IMG/VR virus record: IMGVR_UViG_3300023096_000001
Coordinates: 32,244 to 96,243 of that record
Direction: 5' to 3' (one strand)
Source: a virus
DNA: 64,000 nt
Part shown: piece by piece, positions 45,818 to 58,910 of the stretch
How the letters are laid out: each line of letters starts with the position of its first letter
How positions within the stretch are numbered: position 1 is the first letter of the stretch
Notes under the pieces: generated by a model
What the model saw: the letters and a program-made list of their open reading frames with translations, nothing else
Databases searched by the model: none
What the model was told of the DNA's origin: nothing
Position numbers and translations under genes: made by a program

Positions 45818-46143
45818 TCGCAGTTTGGTTATTTATTAAAAACAACAAAAAGCTGGTAATATCTGTCGCGGTGCTGCTGGCGCTATTTATCTACGGAGCT
45901 ATTCTTTCGATGAAACTTCGTAATGCGAATGATAGAATTAAAACGCTTACCTATGAATCGCAGTCCGATTCTGCATTGATTTTAACACTGACCCGTGACA
46001 AGGTTGATTTATTAAATGATACCGCTAAATACCGAAGCGAAATCAGGGCTATCGCTGAGGATGTGAAACATTTAAGGCAGACAGAAGATGTAAGGGGGTT
46101 GGTAAAGAAATACCCTAGTCTGGAAGAGCTTAAACGAAAATGA
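45814..46143 (+). CDS. N-terminal TM plus coiled-coil protein (spanin- or holin-type)
   Basis: 109 residues from ATG 45814 (ATGA with the previous stop). One TM helix at about 12-30 (LVISVAVLLALFIYGAIL) is followed by a charged helical region (NANDRIKTLTYESQSDSALILTLTRDK in pieces) up to the C-terminus. This is the topology of an inner-membrane i-spanin (Rz-like). It is the first of five overlapping genes that end with the endolysin. Confidence 0.55.
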   Translation: MIAVWLFIKNNKKLVISVAVLLALFIYGAILSMKLRNANDRIKTLTYESQSDSALILTLTRDKVDLLNDTAKYRSEIRAIAEDVKHLRQTEDVRGLVKKYPSLEELKRK

Positions 46144-46496
46144 TTATGAGAACCGCCGTCCTTTTTTTAGTGTTAGTAAGTATGCCTTGGCTCAGTTTTG
46201 CACAGGCGAAAGAAGATTCTTTAAGCCAATTCAAATACCTGTACAAAGAGCAGAAATTCCCGTTTGATAGTGGTGTAGCGATCTCAGATGCACAGTATAG
46301 TTTTTTATTGAGGCAGAGTATCTACACTAAATTGGATCACCGGATTGATAATGCGTTAAAGCCTGTGCCTAAGATTGTATACGAGACGAAGGAAGTGAGA
46401 AAGAAAGGCGATGGCAATAAAGTGGTTTGGTTTCTTTCAGGCACAGCAGCTGGCGTAATAGTGTCCCAAGTTATAGCAATTTTAGTAAAAAAATGA
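46140..46496 (+). CDS. lysis-cassette protein with signal peptide and C-terminal TM
   Basis: 118 residues. The N-terminus (residues 1-22, ending SFAQA) is a Sec signal peptide with Ala-Gln at the cleavage site, and a hydrophobic helix at about 92-112 (VVWFLSGTAAGVIVSQVIAIL) would anchor the C-terminus. The middle is charged. The form fits a periplasm-facing lysis protein (holin, spanin partner or regulator). ATG overlaps the preceding stop. Confidence 0.55.
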   Translation: MIMRTAVLFLVLVSMPWLSFAQAKEDSLSQFKYLYKEQKFPFDSGVAISDAQYSFLLRQSIYTKLDHRIDNALKPVPKIVYETKEVRKKGDGNKVVWFLSGTAAGVIVSQVIAILVKK

Positions 46497-46956: not shown

Positions 46957-47412
46957 ATGAAAATGAAAAGTATTCTCTTTCTATTATCGTCAGCCATGCT
47001 CCTGTTCGCTTTTGGCGACAGAGCACAGAACAGCTTCTCACAGCAGGCTCCCAAGCTAAGCGAGAGTAAGGCGAAAGTGAATTACGATAGCATCCGCCTG
47101 GCGCGGGTTAGCGATAGCCTTCGCATAGAGTTGGAGAAGACGAAAGTGATTGTGGCAGAAACGCAGACCATCACCGAGGAGAGTAAACAACTAACACAGG
47201 ATCTTTTGATCAACAAGGAAAAGCATACTCAGGTTAAAAATCTGGCAACGCAGACGCTTCGGGTGGCTGTTTACAAATCGGACCGAATGCCTATGAATTT
47301 TAATGTGCACCCTATCAAGGAGGAGAAGCCGGTGCCTGTTATTGTGTTGACGCCTCCAAAAGACACGGTGATATTAAAAAAGAAGAAAAAGTTTAGGTGG
47401 CCTTGGAAATGA
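46957..47412 (+). CDS. exported lysis-cassette protein, possible o-spanin-type
   Basis: 151 residues with a hydrophobic N-terminus (MKMKSILFLLSSAMLLFAFG) that looks like a signal peptide or anchor, a charged helical middle (RVSDSLRIELEKTKVIVAETQ) and a very basic C-terminus (KKKKKFRWPWK). There is no lipobox Cys, so a lipoprotein o-spanin is not supported; a membrane-anchored partner is more likely. The stop overlaps the endolysin start (ATGA). Confidence 0.55.
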   Translation: MKMKSILFLLSSAMLLFAFGDRAQNSFSQQAPKLSESKAKVNYDSIRLARVSDSLRIELEKTKVIVAETQTITEESKQLTQDLLINKEKHTQVKNLATQTLRVAVYKSDRMPMNFNVHPIKEEKPVPVIVLTPPKDTVILKKKKKFRWPWK

Positions 47413-48074
47413 TCGATCTGGATTCTTTTATAGCAGTAGCAAAAAAAGTATTCCCTAAAAGCAGAATTGCAGAATTCGATTCTTTTTGGGAACAGGCTTT
47501 TGCGTATGCGTCTATTGATAGTAATTTAAGAGCAGTCATGTTTTTGGCGCAGGTCGGGCATGAGTGTCAAGGGTTTACCAAGTTTGAAGAGAATTTAAAT
47601 TATACAGCGCAGAGACTGGCGGACATCTGGCCTTCAAGGTTTGCTGTTGACAAGAATGCAAAGATAAAGACCCCTAACGAAACGGCTGTAAAAATTCAGC
47701 GGAAACCGGAATTAATCGGGAACGCGGTATACTCCGGGCGAATGGGAAATAAGGCGCCAGGAGATGGCTATAAGTATAGAGGTCGAGGCCTGATTATGCT
47801 GACGGGTTTAAACAATTACCGGGATAGCGATAATGCTTTTAACATGAACGGGAAGATTATCTCAAATCCTGATCTTTTATTGACTCCGTACTGGGGTTTA
47901 ATTACGTCTGCGCGGTACTGGAAGCGTAATGATATTAACCGGTACGCTGATGTTAAAGACATTGCTGGTGCAAGAAAGGCGATCAATGGAGGGCTGATTG
48001 GGCTTGGCGACGTGACGCTGTATTATAACAAGATTTCAAAGCTAATTAATAATAACTCACAAATAACTACTTAA
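47409..48074 (+). CDS. GH19-type endolysin
   Basis: 221 residues from ATG 47409 (ATGA with the previous stop; a GTG at 47397 would overlap more). MFLAQVGHECQGFTKFEENLNY carries the two acidic residues expected of GH19 chitinase/lysozyme (E52 and E60/E61), followed by NAVYSGRMGN and GDGYKYRGRGLIMLTGLNNY, the canonical 'Y.GR..N...GDG..yRGRG.iqlTG..NY' block. It would cleave peptidoglycan glycan strands. Without a signal peptide it needs the membrane proteins just upstream for export or holin-mediated release. Confidence 0.85.
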   Translation: MIDLDSFIAVAKKVFPKSRIAEFDSFWEQAFAYASIDSNLRAVMFLAQVGHECQGFTKFEENLNYTAQRLADIWPSRFAVDKNAKIKTPNETAVKIQRKPELIGNAVYSGRMGNKAPGDGYKYRGRGLIMLTGLNNYRDSDNAFNMNGKIISNPDLLLTPYWGLITSARYWKRNDINRYADVKDIAGARKAINGGLIGLGDVTLYYNKISKLINNNSQITT

Positions 48075-50805: not shown

Positions 50806-53277
50806 ATGGCGATCGTAAATAATTTAATACCGGGAAAGCTGCATCCTGTCACAGGCGAAGATTTACGCCCAACAGTAGTTACTGTTTGGCAAGACGGGAC
50901 AACACCTATGACAGATGCGCTCTGCGGAGGTCTCTACAATAAAGATACCGAAGCAAGCTCTCCTACGTTTGGCTCTTACTTCAAATGGAATGCCGCAGGT
51001 CCTTGGCCGGTGAGCCGTTTAACGACGATTACGCAAGCAAAATTTCAAAAGCTGATCAATGATTTCGGGAGCAATCCTGCGACGATTGTGCTCGATAAAA
51101 CGGTTGCAATCACAAGCAATATGACGATCCCTGCCAATGTTAAAATAGACTGGGTTCCAGGAGCTACATTTAATATATCGACAGGAGTTGTACTGACTTT
51201 GCTAAGTACAATAAATGAGCAAAACCAACAATTATTTTCTGGTTTAGGGAATGTTATTTTAAATGTTGCGAGAGTCAATGTTAAGTGGTTCGGGGCGGTA
51301 GATGATTTTAATACGACTACTTTAACGGGCACCGATAATACAGTTGCTTTCGAAAAAGCAACAAATGCCATTATTGATGGGAGATCTAGCGTTGTTGTAG
51401 TTCCTCGGGGCAGATATGGACTACTGTATTACATAGTTAAAAATGTTTCTTTGATAGGAGAAGGGCGCGTAAGCTTTAGTGCTATGACCAGCTCGGAGCC
51501 TTCGTTTTTTAGACTAATGGAAGGGACGGTTCGTGATATAAGGCTAGAGAATTTTAATCTTTCGGGAAATCCCAATAATCCAGGACAGGTTGGATTTGAT
51601 GCTACGGCTATTTATTCTCCAACAGAAAATACAGGTGGTTGGTGGTATAGTAGCATGAGTGATGTCAATATTAGAGGGTTCTTAGGCCATCAAATGAACT
51701 TCACTGCTCTTGACCCTAACATCTCAGGCACATTCAGGGATATTGCCAATCAGTTCTTAACTTTTAATAGAGTCACTGCTTTTAGGAGCAACGCGACCAC
51801 AAGGGCTTTGCGGGCAAATGGGCAATTTGGGCAGATTCAGTTTAATGGATGTGAATTTGATGGAGCAGCAGAGAATACTTTGGTAGATTCAGTAAATGTT
51901 GAGCTCATCTCAAGTGTAACAACAGGAGATACGGATCAGATATATAGCGTAGACTTTAATTTATGTACCTTTCAGAATGGAGATAAAGGAGTTAGGACAT
52001 CCTTTGTGAAAACGGTCAATTTAAATGGATGTCATTTTGAAAATTTGGCAAGGCCTATTTATATAGAGACAGGGAGTCAAGTGAATGTGTTAAACAACTA
52101 CTTTGGAGCCTGTGGATTAGGGTCTCGGATAACAAATGCGACAATTGAAGGATGTCTTGCTTATGTAGGATCTACTTGTGAGATGAGTTTTGATGGTTGT
52201 GCTGTATCAGGAGCTCATGATTTTACTATTATAGGAGATGGATTAAGTGGAGTAAACTATGGATCTGCAAATAAATTTGTTCCTACTTATAAAACAATTG
52301 ATTATCAAGGATCTGTAACAGGAGCCGGGGTGTTGACTATTAACTCTCATTCTGGCCGAATTTTAGTGAACGCTACTACTACTGAGTTAAATACTATATC
52401 TTCTACAAAAGGGGTCGGTAATGAGATTGTACTTACCCCGCTAGGCACCTTAACATTAAATGTTACGGGCAATATTGCGATTCCGATTGCTTTAACGAAG
52501 CTTATATTTAGAGCGGGACAGTTAATCACTTTAAGAAGAAGGGGGGCAAAATGGGATGTGATAAATGTTAATGATTCGTTTTTCACTCAATTCACGGGGA
52601 GTCCTGAAGGTGTTATTGTTGCAGCAAAAAGCACTATAGGGTATCGGACAGACGCGAGCGTTAATGGCTCTGTTTACTTTAAGTCTATAGAAGACGCCGG
52701 AGCTAACAATACAGGATGGATCGCTATCACGCCTAAAATAATAAGAACTTTAATCAATGCAACGCCTAAAACAGCTAACTATACGATAACAGCTGATGAT
52801 TCTACAATATTATACAACGCGACCTCAGGAAACTTAAATGCGACTCTGCCTTCGGCATCTTCTTCGTTCTCGGTAGATTCTGGCAGGATATATACCATAA
52901 AGAAAACAGATGCAACGGCGAATACTGTTACAGTTGTGGGATCTATTGATGGTGGGACTAATTTTGTATTGAGAAATCAAAACGAAGCGATAACTGTTCA
53001 ATCTACGGGCACAGACTTTAAAATAATAGATTATTACAACCCCAATGTAGAACAGTATCAAGTAAAGACTGCTTCAGGTACAGGTGTGCTGACGACAATT
53101 AACATTGCACATGGCCTTGGTTATACGCCTGTTTTGACAGGAATCGTGCCTAACAATGCAGCTTCTAACGTGCAGCCTTTAGTGACAGCCGATGCAACGA
53201 ATTTTATTTTTAATTACGCGGTAGCTCCGGCCAGTGGAACGAATAACCTAAGCTATAATATTTCTTATAAAAGATAA
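50806..53277 (+). CDS. tail spike with pectate-lyase-3 type beta-helix
   Basis: 823 residues. After an N-terminal attachment region, NVKWFGAVDDFN then GTDNTVAFEKATNAIIDG and VVVVPRGRYGLLYYIV mark the start of the beta-helix at about residue 162, with Gly/Asn coils to about 480. The C-terminal 200 residues are Ala/Thr/Asn-rich beta (TANTVTVVGSIDGGTNFVL), probably a trimer tip. The start ATG is 3 bases behind the collagen-like gene and its stop overlaps the next start (TAATG). Confidence 0.7.
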   Translation: MAIVNNLIPGKLHPVTGEDLRPTVVTVWQDGTTPMTDALCGGLYNKDTEASSPTFGSYFKWNAAGPWPVSRLTTITQAKFQKLINDFGSNPATIVLDKTVAITSNMTIPANVKIDWVPGATFNISTGVVLTLLSTINEQNQQLFSGLGNVILNVARVNVKWFGAVDDFNTTTLTGTDNTVAFEKATNAIIDGRSSVVVVPRGRYGLLYYIVKNVSLIGEGRVSFSAMTSSEPSFFRLMEGTVRDIRLENFNLSGNPNNPGQVGFDATAIYSPTENTGGWWYSSMSDVNIRGFLGHQMNFTALDPNISGTFRDIANQFLTFNRVTAFRSNATTRALRANGQFGQIQFNGCEFDGAAENTLVDSVNVELISSVTTGDTDQIYSVDFNLCTFQNGDKGVRTSFVKTVNLNGCHFENLARPIYIETGSQVNVLNNYFGACGLGSRITNATIEGCLAYVGSTCEMSFDGCAVSGAHDFTIIGDGLSGVNYGSANKFVPTYKTIDYQGSVTGAGVLTINSHSGRILVNATTTELNTISSTKGVGNEIVLTPLGTLTLNVTGNIAIPIALTKLIFRAGQLITLRRRGAKWDVINVNDSFFTQFTGSPEGVIVAAKSTIGYRTDASVNGSVYFKSIEDAGANNTGWIAITPKIIRTLINATPKTANYTITADDSTILYNATSGNLNATLPSASSSFSVDSGRIYTIKKTDATANTVTVVGSIDGGTNFVLRNQNEAITVQSTGTDFKIIDYYNPNVEQYQVKTASGTGVLTTINIAHGLGYTPVLTGIVPNNAASNVQPLVTADATNFIFNYAVAPASGTNNLSYNISYKR

Positions 53278-53870
53278 TGGCACAGATCGGCGCAGCACTT
53301 TTTGACCTGGCAACGGATCTTGTTAATCAAGGGGGGGCCGCAGGGATTCAGGTAAGAACCAACGGGGGTACTTCCTTCAACGATGGGCAGGCAGGGACGT
53401 ATGCGTGGAATGCTTCGAGCACGGCTACCCATGACGGGATCAACGTGATCAAGGTCACAGCGATCACAACCGGCAGGTGGGTCCGCCAGACGACGCCCGC
53501 TGCCAGCAATATCCCGATTGGAAATTTGCTTGCCAGTGATCTTGTCAGCTCTGCTCCCCGTTCGAATGGCACTACTTCAGCGGCAACGATTACGGTGAAT
53601 GTGGATACGACAGATAATTATAATGTAACCGCTTTAGTGGCGAACACGACGATTGCTGCACCAACGGGAACGCCGGTACAGAACCAGGAGCTGATCCTCC
53701 GCATTACGTCAGACGCCAGTATTCGCACGTTGACATGGAATGCCATCTTTAGAGCAGGTAGTGAACTGCCTCTACCGACCGCTACGATCGCGTCAAAAAC
53801 ACAGTATCTAGCGTTTATCTATAACGTTGAGGCTGTCAAGTGGGACTTTGTCGGCAGCACTACGTTATGA
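53277..53870 (+). CDS. tail adaptor-like protein, paralog of 56585
   Basis: 197 residues. Residues 1-75 (AQIGAALFDLATDLVNQGG, GGTSFNDGQAGTYAW, SSTATHDGINVIKVT, TGRWVRQ) closely match the start of the 56585-57088 protein. The C-terminal half (NVDTTDNYNVTALVANTTIAAPTG, IRTLTWN, YNVEAVKWDFVG) is a beta domain frequent in tail fibre proteins. No catalytic motif. Probably a domain that binds the next fibre to the particle. The stop overlaps the following ATG. Confidence 0.6.
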   Translation: MAQIGAALFDLATDLVNQGGAAGIQVRTNGGTSFNDGQAGTYAWNASSTATHDGINVIKVTAITTGRWVRQTTPAASNIPIGNLLASDLVSSAPRSNGTTSAATITVNVDTTDNYNVTALVANTTIAAPTGTPVQNQELILRITSDASIRTLTWNAIFRAGSELPLPTATIASKTQYLAFIYNVEAVKWDFVGSTTL

Positions 53871-54559
53871 TACTGATCAATGGATATAAGCGTTCTTCGG
53901 GTCCTCCGGCGGTACTCTCTGACGGGAATACGGCTGCGTGGTATAAATCCGATGAGACGGCTACTATTACCAAAGACGGGTCTCAAAAAGTTTCCCGTTG
54001 GAATGATTTTCTAGGCAGCGGACGTGATTTGACTTCTCCGAATGAAGACAGCACGCCGACATGGAGTGCGAACGGGATTGAATTTAATGGGGTATTTAAT
54101 TACATGACCGCAAACTTTACGCTGACACAGCCTGAGTTTACTTATATTGTCGTCAAGATATTCTCTGACGCAGCAGGTGCTTTGTATTGCGGCGCAAACT
54201 CGGGCGCGAATTGTCCGGTGTACATCAATAGTATCTCAGGCAGTGTGGCGACGTTAACGATGGAGGCTGGCGGTGGTGCGGTGAGTGCCGGGAATGCGCC
54301 TGTTGGATCGTTCATTATTTTGAGGACACTTTTTAACGGGGCGAGCTCAAAGTTTATCGTGAACAGTTTATCGCCTAACACAGGGAACCCAGGCACGAAT
54401 CCTTTGACAGGGTTTACGATCGGTTCTAACTATGGTATTGACTATGTAGGGAGCTTTTCTCATATTCAAGTCAAAGAGGTGATTCTTAGAAGGGTGGCTG
54501 ATAACAGTACCAACGAGACAGCGATTTATAATTACCTGAAAGCTAAATATTCACTCTGA
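53867..54559 (+). CDS. ConA/LamG-like lectin-type tail protein
   Basis: 230 residues from ATG 53867 (overlaps the previous stop as ATGA). WYKSDETATITKDGSQKVSRWND and NGIEFNGVFNYMTANFTLTQPEFTY are typical of concanavalin A/laminin-G-like jelly rolls, with IIL and FIIL strands and a late segment YVGSFSHIQVKEVILRR before a C-terminal helix. A carbohydrate-binding role is inferred from the fold type. The stop overlaps the ATG of the next spike (TGATG). Confidence 0.6.
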   Translation: MILINGYKRSSGPPAVLSDGNTAAWYKSDETATITKDGSQKVSRWNDFLGSGRDLTSPNEDSTPTWSANGIEFNGVFNYMTANFTLTQPEFTYIVVKIFSDAAGALYCGANSGANCPVYINSISGSVATLTMEAGGGAVSAGNAPVGSFIILRTLFNGASSKFIVNSLSPNTGNPGTNPLTGFTIGSNYGIDYVGSFSHIQVKEVILRRVADNSTNETAIYNYLKAKYSL

Positions 54560-56584: not shown

Positions 56585-57088
56585 ATGTCACAATTAGGAC
56601 CTACTTCGTTTGCATTAATTTCTGACCTGAGCAGTCAGGCGGGATCTCCCGGAGTTTCTGTGATGGTGAATGGCAAAACGTCCATGAATGACTCCTGGGG
56701 AGCGATCTACTTCTGGAGCGGTTCTTCAACGGCCACTGCTGACGGGTTTAGTGTTATTCAGGTAACAGGCGTAGCAACGGGGCGATGGATACGCCAGTCA
56801 GTCGCAATGAATGTGGTGTCTGCGGCGGCAACCCTTGATTTAGGGACCATTACAGGGTATTACACGTTCAATGGGACGACCGCTACCTGGAAGCTTCCCG
56901 CTTTGAGTGCCAGCATTACAGCACGTCTTATTTTAATCAATCAAGGCAGCGGTGCCGTGAATGTGATCTCGAATGCAGGTTTTGAAGACATTGACGATTC
57001 CGGCACTTCGCTCTCTTCGATTCAAATGATGCCCGGAGAGCACTATATTTTCTACAACAATTCGTTAAAGTTTACCTCGCTACAATAA
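56585..57088 (+). CDS. tail adaptor-like protein, paralog of 53277
   Basis: 167 residues; N-terminal 75 (SQLGPTSFALISDLSSQAG, GKTSMNDSWGAIYFW, SSTATADGFSVIQVT, TGRWIRQ) match the 53277 protein. The C-terminal half differs (ATWKLPALSASITARLILINQGSGAVNV), a small beta domain. It precedes the 57126 fibre as the 53277 protein precedes the lectin and spike genes, which suggests each copy is a docking unit for the fibre behind it. Confidence 0.6.
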   Translation: MSQLGPTSFALISDLSSQAGSPGVSVMVNGKTSMNDSWGAIYFWSGSSTATADGFSVIQVTGVATGRWIRQSVAMNVVSAAATLDLGTITGYYTFNGTTATWKLPALSASITARLILINQGSGAVNVISNAGFEDIDDSGTSLSSIQMMPGEHYIFYNNSLKFTSLQ

Positions 57089-57125: not shown

Positions 57126-58499
57126 ATGAAACGCTTATCCCACTTATTTTTCATCTTACTTACTTCGTCGGTTTCTTATGCACAGGTCGCCAGCCGGTTG
57201 ATCGCCAGTCAGGCCATACCTATTGATAGCGCCGTACTCAATGTGATGTTTGTCGATACCGTGGCCGGAGCTATGAACCGAACGTGGGTTGCCCGGACCT
57301 CTTCGTTAAAGTTTCGCACCCGTCAGATACGCGGCTTAAAGGATAGTGTTGCGCTTTTTACGGCACCTCTATACCGCCCGATGAGTTATGTGCCGACTTG
57401 GAGCCAAATCACTTCTAAGCCTACATTTTCGGCTGTGGCAACGAGTGGGAGTTATAATGATCTTTCAAGTAAGCCTACCATTCCGACTGTACCCTCCAAT
57501 GTGAGCGCTTTTGCAAACGATGCCGGGTATTTAACGAGTGTGCCCGCGCAGAGCTATGCGTCTCTCACAGGGAAGCCAAACCTTTCAGCAGTAGCGTTGT
57601 CGGGTAATTATTCTGATCTGAGTGGGCTTCCTACGATTCCGTCGGCACAGGTAAACTCTGACTGGAATAGCGCTTCAGGGGTGAGCCAGATACTCAACAA
57701 ACCTGTCATACCTACCAATACCAATCAACTTGTAAATGGGGCAGGGTTCTTGACAGGGATCACCTCTGCACAGATTGCCTCCGCTTTAGGTTTTACCCCT
57801 TATTCGAGCAGTAACCCGAACGGCTATATTTCTTCGGTGCCGGCACAGAGTTGGGCCTCGATCACAGGGAAGCCAACGTTTGCAGCTGTTGCCACCTCAG
57901 GGCTGTACAGTGATCTGTCTGGCGCACCTACTATTCCAACGACCACGAGTCAGATTACAGAGGGAAGTAGGCTGTACTATACAGACACCCGCGCAAGAGC
58001 AGCAGTCAGCTTAACCACTACAGGAAGTGGAGCCGCAACTTACAACCCTTCTACAGGAGCTTTAAATGTGCCTACTCCGACAGTATACACCGCTGGCACT
58101 GGTATTGACATTACATCTGGTGTGATCTCAAGTTCAGCGGCTGCTGTAACGTTTAACAATGCTCCTTCACGAACAATAGGCACTTCTTTTCAGGTCTCTA
58201 CGACACGTCCTGCGAGAGTTAGTTATACAGTTTCTTGCGTAACCGGACTTTCTTTATTAAATTTAAACAGTAATGCGCAGGCATTTTTGGAGATAAGTGC
58301 TAACAATAGCACCTGGATTACGGTGAATGGAGCTGGGTCAACAAAAACTTTAGCCGTATCTCTATCCGTAGGGATTAACGAGACAACGCTTTACAACTTG
58401 CAATGTGAAGTTCCTGCTGGGTGGTGGGTTCGTTTAAGAAGTGTAGTCTCAGGAGGTGGCACCGTTGCGTTTTCTTCAGGTCAGGAAGCTCAATACTAA
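57126..58499 (+). CDS. repeat-rich tail fibre with an N-terminal signal peptide
   Basis: 457 residues. MKRLSHLFFILLTSSVSYAQ has a basic n-region, a hydrophobic core and SYAQ, i.e. a standard Sec signal peptide. Residues about 90-310 carry at least four tail-fibre repeats of the form 'W.QITSKPTFSAVATSGSY.DLSSKPTIP' (SWASITGKPTFAAVATSGLY; SYASLTGKPNLSAVALSGNY). The C-terminus (FLEISANNSTWITVNGAG) is a beta tip. A phage fibre with a secretion signal is unusual. The gene follows the second adaptor by 37 bases. Confidence 0.65.
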   Translation: MKRLSHLFFILLTSSVSYAQVASRLIASQAIPIDSAVLNVMFVDTVAGAMNRTWVARTSSLKFRTRQIRGLKDSVALFTAPLYRPMSYVPTWSQITSKPTFSAVATSGSYNDLSSKPTIPTVPSNVSAFANDAGYLTSVPAQSYASLTGKPNLSAVALSGNYSDLSGLPTIPSAQVNSDWNSASGVSQILNKPVIPTNTNQLVNGAGFLTGITSAQIASALGFTPYSSSNPNGYISSVPAQSWASITGKPTFAAVATSGLYSDLSGAPTIPTTTSQITEGSRLYYTDTRARAAVSLTTTGSGAATYNPSTGALNVPTPTVYTAGTGIDITSGVISSSAAAVTFNNAPSRTIGTSFQVSTTRPARVSYTVSCVTGLSLLNLNSNAQAFLEISANNSTWITVNGAGSTKTLAVSLSVGINETTLYNLQCEVPAGWWVRLRSVVSGGGTVAFSSGQEAQY

Positions 58500-58505
58500 A
58501 ATAAT

Positions 58506-58910
58506 ATGCTTTATTATTATCCCGACTTTAGGGTTAGAAAATACAATAAGCCGAACGGACGCTTTTCGTGGTATGAAACCGTGGAGGAGACGTCCGTTCA
58601 TGGCGCTATTGATGATTTCATCGTGCCAGCAAATTTCGTTACTGATTTTGCCTCTGTGCCAAGATTATTTCAGGTATTGATTCCAGCTCATGGTCTTGCG
58701 ATGCCGCCATCTATCCTTCACGATTTCATGTATACTACTCAGCATTTCAAAGATAAACTCGGCGACCGTGCTGCAAGGTATTACGCAGATGACCTCTTCC
58801 GAAGAAATTTACTTGACATGGGCATCAAAAAGTGGCAGGTATTTGTGATGTTTTACGCTGTCAGATGGTTCGGCGCGAATCGTTGGCGGAAGAAAGGTGG
58901 TAGGAGTTAG
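58506..58910 (+). CDS. DUF1353 family protein
   Basis: 134 residues. IVPANFVTDFASVPRLFQVLIPAHG, PSILHDFMYTT, YADDLFRRNLLDMG and FYAVRWFGANRW follow DUF1353: 'vpagF.TDfASVPr......g.......lHD.lY ... aD..f...l...g ... aVr..G...W'. This family is widespread in phages and near lysis or tail genes; biochemical function is unknown. Last gene of the rightward block; its end overlaps a leftward gene by 4 bases, with no strong terminator between. Confidence 0.7.
   Translation: MLYYYPDFRVRKYNKPNGRFSWYETVEETSVHGAIDDFIVPANFVTDFASVPRLFQVLIPAHGLAMPPSILHDFMYTTQHFKDKLGDRAARYYADDLFRRNLLDMGIKKWQVFVMFYAVRWFGANRWRKKGGRS

Follow-up and report, generated by a model that had tools for sequence, protein, structure and literature searches.

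A tail-fibre gene with a predicted Sec signal peptide and a conserved upstream partner in phages of Pseudomonas and, probably, Bacteroidota

INTRODUCTION

In tailed phages, both the synthesis of tail fibres and their attachment are assumed to take place in the cytoplasm. An export signal is carried by the phage T5 protein Llp, which acts around receptors and masks them by other means, being a lipoprotein and not a fibre. The closest described counterpart of the locus reported here is the gp24-gp25 pair of Pseudomonas phage AF, in which a gene encoding a beta-domain protein (phrog_35311) is directly followed by a gene encoding a fibre with a signal peptide (phrog_31472). PHROGs gives "unknown function" for both families, and no published function for gp24-gp25 was found in the literature that we searched.

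Here, we describe a gene pair with the same adjacent order in a 64,000-nucleotide stretch (the window) of the IMG/VR virus record IMGVR_UViG_3300023096_000001. The two systems differ in that the AF leader is of a Pseudomonas type that lacks glutamine at the first position after cleavage (+1). Homology between the Bacteroidota-type beta-domain of the window and the Pseudomonas-type beta-domain could not be shown (hhalign probability of 6%); the two are alike in size and place. Relatives are referred to below by the L-numbers of the virus loci or records compared.

RESULTS

In the 96-kb virus record, the structural module ends with a fibre region, and the fibre gene is located there, preceded by a gene for a 167-aa partner and followed by a DUF1353 gene (Table 1). 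Its reading frame is free of in-frame stops, and an earlier note on this DNA had its position, strand, and sequence right. A wrong start codon was rejected, as the called ATG directly opens the leader and a longer open frame is not listed. The DUF1353 gene was also rejected as a member of the module, as it was not found in the records of 11 relatives.

Table 1. Features of the fibre locus, with positions in the window
Feature	Position	Strand	Basis or remark
Partner, 167 aa: tailspike-type adaptor motif (residues ~27-71) and C-terminal beta-domain (78-164)	56585..57088	+	phrog_38440 match
Beta-domain, candidate docking site	56816..57076	+	Same domain precedes the signal-peptide fibres of L003, L011, and L178
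Fibre with predicted export, 457 aa	57126..58499	+	Signal peptide, N-domain, repeat shaft, TNF-like head
Signal peptide, residues 1-19, predicted cleavage SYA/Q (MKRLSHLFFILLTSSVSYA before Q)	57126..57182	+	Direct reading, rule-based scorer, Q-rule (PMC5837995)
Mature N-domain, residues 20 to ~90; candidate attachment end	57183..57395	+	Common to L003 (VASRLIASQAIPIDS / AATLLSTQAIPKDT)
Fibre-repeat shaft (SYNDLSSKPTIP... / DWNSASGVSQILNKP...)	57396..58145	+	Repeats, profile matches
C-terminal TNF-like jelly-roll head, about residues 341-457, with Cys371 and Cys427	58146..58496	+	Structure prediction
DUF1353 protein (phrog_1158, annotated tail assembly chaperone)	58506..58910	+	6 nt downstream of fibre

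Residues ~91-340 of the fibre consist of fibre repeats, with phrog_31472, the family of AF gp25, as the best match in a PHROG profile search (E = 1.8e-41) and a further match to the tail-fibre family phrog_9729 (E = 1.4e-10). As in the AF gp25 family, a signal peptide and an upstream beta-domain, here of the Bacteroidota type, accompany the profile match. A Pfam search of the fibre returned zero matches. The protein thus combines fibre repeats with a receptor-type tip, as a virion tail fibre does. It has no N-terminal virion-attachment domain of its own; a signal peptide stands in that place, and an adaptor motif is found on the upstream protein.

The C-terminal head (residues 345-454, about the last 110) was modeled by AlphaFold with a pLDDT of 90.5, and the model matches TNF-like jelly rolls, among them a cyanophage needle and the lectins BC2L-C and PLTL, which are trimeric. 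BC2L-C and PLTL are alike in predicted fold but are stand-alone bacterial lectins with 10-15% identity to the head; a sequence search against solved structures gave nothing useful. TNF-like tips are already known from phage tail structures. The head is probably glycan- or receptor-binding. In BFVD, it comes closest to models of uncharacterised proteins from invertebrate iridescent viruses 22 and 25 (TM of 0.93-0.94, 27-28% identity), and a head common to phages and iridoviruses was unexpected.

Exactly one copy of the head was present in each of the 15 virus records examined. Fibres of XAJ2, phiEa2809, and L002 carry the same head but have no signal peptide, and in L089-L091 the head lies behind a membrane-spanning N-terminus, with a second signal-peptide protein upstream. 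A search of 395 Bacteroidota and 369 Gammaproteobacteria genomes (764 in total, with positive controls) did not find the head, and capture of a bacterial gene was rejected on this basis. The same result bears on the idea that the protein is an exported bacterial-style adhesin that alters the surface of the infected host, in the manner of secreted fibre-like proteins of Bacteroidota or Bdellovibrio. Bacteria do have such adhesins (MAT proteins, PMC10769870), but besides the absence of the head from the sampled genomes, the gene sits in a tail-fibre module with virion-type neighbours. Its product matches no Pfam model, which leaves it without an S74 self-cleavage domain and without the C-terminal sorting domain of T9SS secretion, the C-terminus being the TNF-like head. 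We regard this role as improbable.

The earlier note had read a signal peptide ending in SYAQ on a protein made of tail-fibre repeats, and the scorer, the matches to phrog_31472 and phrog_9729, and the relatives all agree with that reading. Signal peptides were called with a rule-based scorer, and cleavage sites were set by rule and by eye. Residues 1-19 comprise an n-region with K/R, a charge-free hydrophobic core, and the cleavage motif S-Y-A, with serine at -3, alanine at -1, and glutamine at +1. This combination of n-region charge, core, small residues at -3 and -1, and +1 glutamine is that of a Sec and signal peptidase I substrate of a Bacteroidota host. Glutamine occupies +1 in about 71% of Bacteroidetes signal peptidase I substrates (PMC5837995). 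Among the relatives, it was found in all four Bacteroidota-type members (the window, L003, L011, and L178) and in no Pseudomonas-type member, although the four amount to two independent cases because they form two related pairs. Shine-Dalgarno-like motifs were found for 2 of 34 window genes, compared with 7 of 9 in phage AF; genes of Bacteroidota usually lack such motifs. The window portal protein had zero matches among named phages.

Signal peptides are rare among fibres. The same scorer flagged 7 of the 129 ORFs of at least 90 aa in the 96-kb record, and the window fibre was the only fibre flagged. Genes adjoining the endolysin are also among the seven. Two ORFs beside the endolysin (47397-48074), at 46140-46496 and 46957-47412, have signal-peptide-like N-termini (SFA/QAKED and DRA/QNSFSQ), both with glutamine at +1, and probably encode lysis-cassette proteins of the spanin kind. 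Among proteins found via the repeats, 6 of 64 distinct fibre N-termini carried a signal-peptide leader, so it is no general trait of repeat proteins. Another exported design may be represented by L028:7623-11204, a fibre-repeat protein of 1193 aa that has a signal peptide and lacks both the beta-domain and the TNF-like head.

Signal peptides recur in relatives from several phage lineages, including AF gp25, AH02 gp17, and Orisa gp38 of isolated Pseudomonas phages. This recurrence and the pattern at +1 rule out a chance hydrophobic N-terminus. The leader diverges more quickly than the domain that follows (53% identity compared with 93% for the N-domain between L081 and L171) while its character remains constant. 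An even number of cysteines (0, 2, or 4) was counted in 24 of 25 mature fibres. A single common position for a cysteine pair was rejected, as positions vary by lineage and only the even number recurs. Even counts are a mark of disulfides and would point to folding outside the cytoplasm. Taken together, the leader features, their rarity among fibres, the +1 glutamine, the constant leader character, and the even cysteines make it very likely that the fibre is exported by Sec and that residues 1-19 are removed by signal peptidase I.

The note had also raised the possibility of a membrane-like anchor inside the virion. The hydrophobic N-terminus would then stay uncleaved, buried in the tail or in a partner, and the fibre would be assembled in the cytoplasm as usual. 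The fibre repeats and the genome position are typical of virion fibres, and the signal-peptide prediction comes from a rule-based scorer, both of which favour such an anchor. However, the +1 residue is host-matched, with glutamine in the Bacteroidota type only, and a signal peptidase-type motif lies immediately before the conserved mature start. The leader is also less conserved than the N-domain, and the cysteines are paired. We therefore consider an uncleaved anchor improbable.

The partner has an adaptor of the kind found in tailspikes, lacks a signal peptide, and gave a structure model that matches tailspike and baseplate structures. Most signal-peptide fibres lie directly downstream of a gene ending in a beta-domain of ~90 aa. 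Pseudomonas phages have this domain as a small protein of its own (AF gp24, Orisa gp37). In L003, L011, and L178 it is the C-terminal part of a larger tail protein, and in the window it ends the adaptor-bearing protein. The partner and fibre genes are separated by 37 nt in the window and by 53 nt in L003, which excludes a ribosomal frameshift fusing them in these two cases. L085:5018-5422 (Orisa03_00037), annotated as 5'/3'-nucleotidase SurE, is a beta-domain partner (phrog_35311) and looks misannotated. The tailspike-type adaptor motif of the partner recurs in another short protein of the window, encoded at 53277-53870 before 53840-54559, and these two ORFs are perhaps a second adaptor-plus-partner pair. 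GDSL/SGNH esterase domains occur in tail proteins adjoining the fibre module in L003, L002, L011, and L085 (upstream).

A profile search of genome contigs with the Pseudomonas-type alignment returned 14 loci, matching mainly the shaft. Beta-domain and signal-peptide fibre were coupled in the shaft-driven set (Fisher P = 4.7e-6), and in the Pseudomonas type a signal-peptide fibre lay directly downstream of 21 of 21 beta-domain genes, usually overlapping by a few bases; some of the co-occurrence counts rest on loci that had been retrieved with signal-peptide fibres, and those loci also supplied the domain profiles. Because the Pseudomonas-type loci had been fetched with the fibre as query, we ran a search with the beta-domain only. 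It returned 15 loci, one of them weak, and in each of the other 14 (four of them new) the beta-domain was followed by a signal-peptide fibre. The exceptions to the coupling are AH02, L103, and L107, which have a signal-peptide fibre and no beta-domain neighbour.

The near-identical phages L002 and L011 (97% identity in the flanks) differ in one continuous segment, which begins inside the upstream tail gene and stops where the head starts. The L002 fibre opens with a virion adaptor, and the protein encoded upstream of it lacks a beta-domain; the L011 fibre opens with a signal peptide, and a beta-domain forms the end of its upstream protein. The head was kept across the exchange (97% identical). 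The reverse was seen in L102, L108, L109, and L110, in which the head was exchanged and the signal peptide, N-domain, and beta-domain stayed, and the L081/L171 pair, with its conserved N-domain, has heads of 20% identity. Swapping of heads while N-domain and beta-domain stay follows the usual logic of an attachment end and a recognition end. By this pattern, the N-domain behaves as the attachment end and the head as the recognition end, and the beta-domain is likely to be the partner of the N-domain.

DISCUSSION

The recurrence of the gene pair in unrelated phages of Bacteroidota and Pseudomonas suggests that, in some phages, a receptor-binding fibre is exported rather than built into the particle within the cytoplasm. 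We prefer, at nearly an even chance, to read the pair as a two-gene receptor-binding module: the exported fibre would fold in the periplasm, lysis would set it free, and it would then dock on a beta-domain carried by the virion. The fibre would be made beside its partner and exported by Sec, with signal peptidase I cutting off the leader. It would then fold into a homotrimer ending in the predicted TNF-like head, with a disulfide in many members. The partner would remain cytoplasmic, enter the virion by its tailspike-type adaptor, and expose the beta-domain, as its domain make-up suggests. At lysis, periplasmic fibres would meet released virions, the mature N-domain would dock on the beta-domain, and the particle would be completed outside the cell.

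Because the partner has no signal peptide and resembles a virion protein, fibre and partner would meet only after lysis, which makes docking of the exported fibre on released virions the most economical reading. The docking step itself we hold slightly more tentatively than the module as a whole. Against it, the membrane-anchored head variant of L089-L091 would suit a role at the envelope. A paper on a related phage states that the AF tail spike had been suggested as the sole virion component setting host specificity (PMC8951688), which speaks against gp25 as a working virion receptor-binding protein and against docking.

The earlier note had concluded that export would remove the fibre from the particle. 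This does not follow, since the fibre is tied to an upstream protein with a docking-like beta-domain; that link, together with the same head on a virion-adaptor fibre in a sister phage, gives attachment after lysis the better support. The C-terminal head, the upstream partner, and the recurrence in other phages were missing from that account.

The chief rival is receptor masking, also proposed in the note, in which a fibre displayed on or near the infected cell, or released, occupies receptors and never joins the virion, so blocking superinfection or keeping progeny from being trapped by debris. An export signal on a protein with a lectin-type TNF-like head would suit this role, as would the L089-L091 arrangement and the position of the fibre next to lysis genes in AF and Orisa. 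A blocker should, however, share its head with the virion receptor-binding protein of the same phage, and each record searched has a single head copy. Masking also leaves unexplained the L002/L011 exchange and the coupling of the fibre to the beta-domain of tail proteins. It is possible but weakened, and we consider it unlikely.

If the preferred reading of export and docking on the virion is correct, fibres could even be shared between progeny from different cells. With a conserved exported-fibre module, virion maturation would gain an extracytoplasmic step, or phages would gain a new exclusion device; such a module also bears on the finding of receptor-binding proteins in genomes. As a generalisation, that some tailed phages finish their receptor-binding apparatus outside the cytoplasm, by Sec export, oxidising periplasmic folding, and clipping of the fibre onto a docking domain after lysis, is a possibility that we put forward with more reserve than docking at this locus. 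The question can already be tested in the Pseudomonas isolates AH02, Orisa, and AF, the last of which has P. putida as its laboratory host.

A module of this sort, with tail fibres that are secreted, exported, or equipped with a signal peptide, was not described in the literature searched, which covered few subscription papers. The fibres of XAJ2 (a 207-aa protein), phiEa2809, and L002 have the same head on a repeat, coiled, or collagen shaft, but they have an adaptor-type N-terminus of their own in place of a signal peptide. The mosaic adhesive trimer (MAT) proteins of Bdellovibrio resemble the window fibre, as described, in having a signal peptide, a trimeric phage-fibre-like body, and varied tips (PMC10769870). 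A conserved beta-domain of ~130 aa follows their signal peptide. They are bacterial genes, many with S74, whereas the window fibre is a phage gene with a TNF-like head and without S74. The parts of the module are thus of known kinds, and, within the literature searched, their combination in phages is new.
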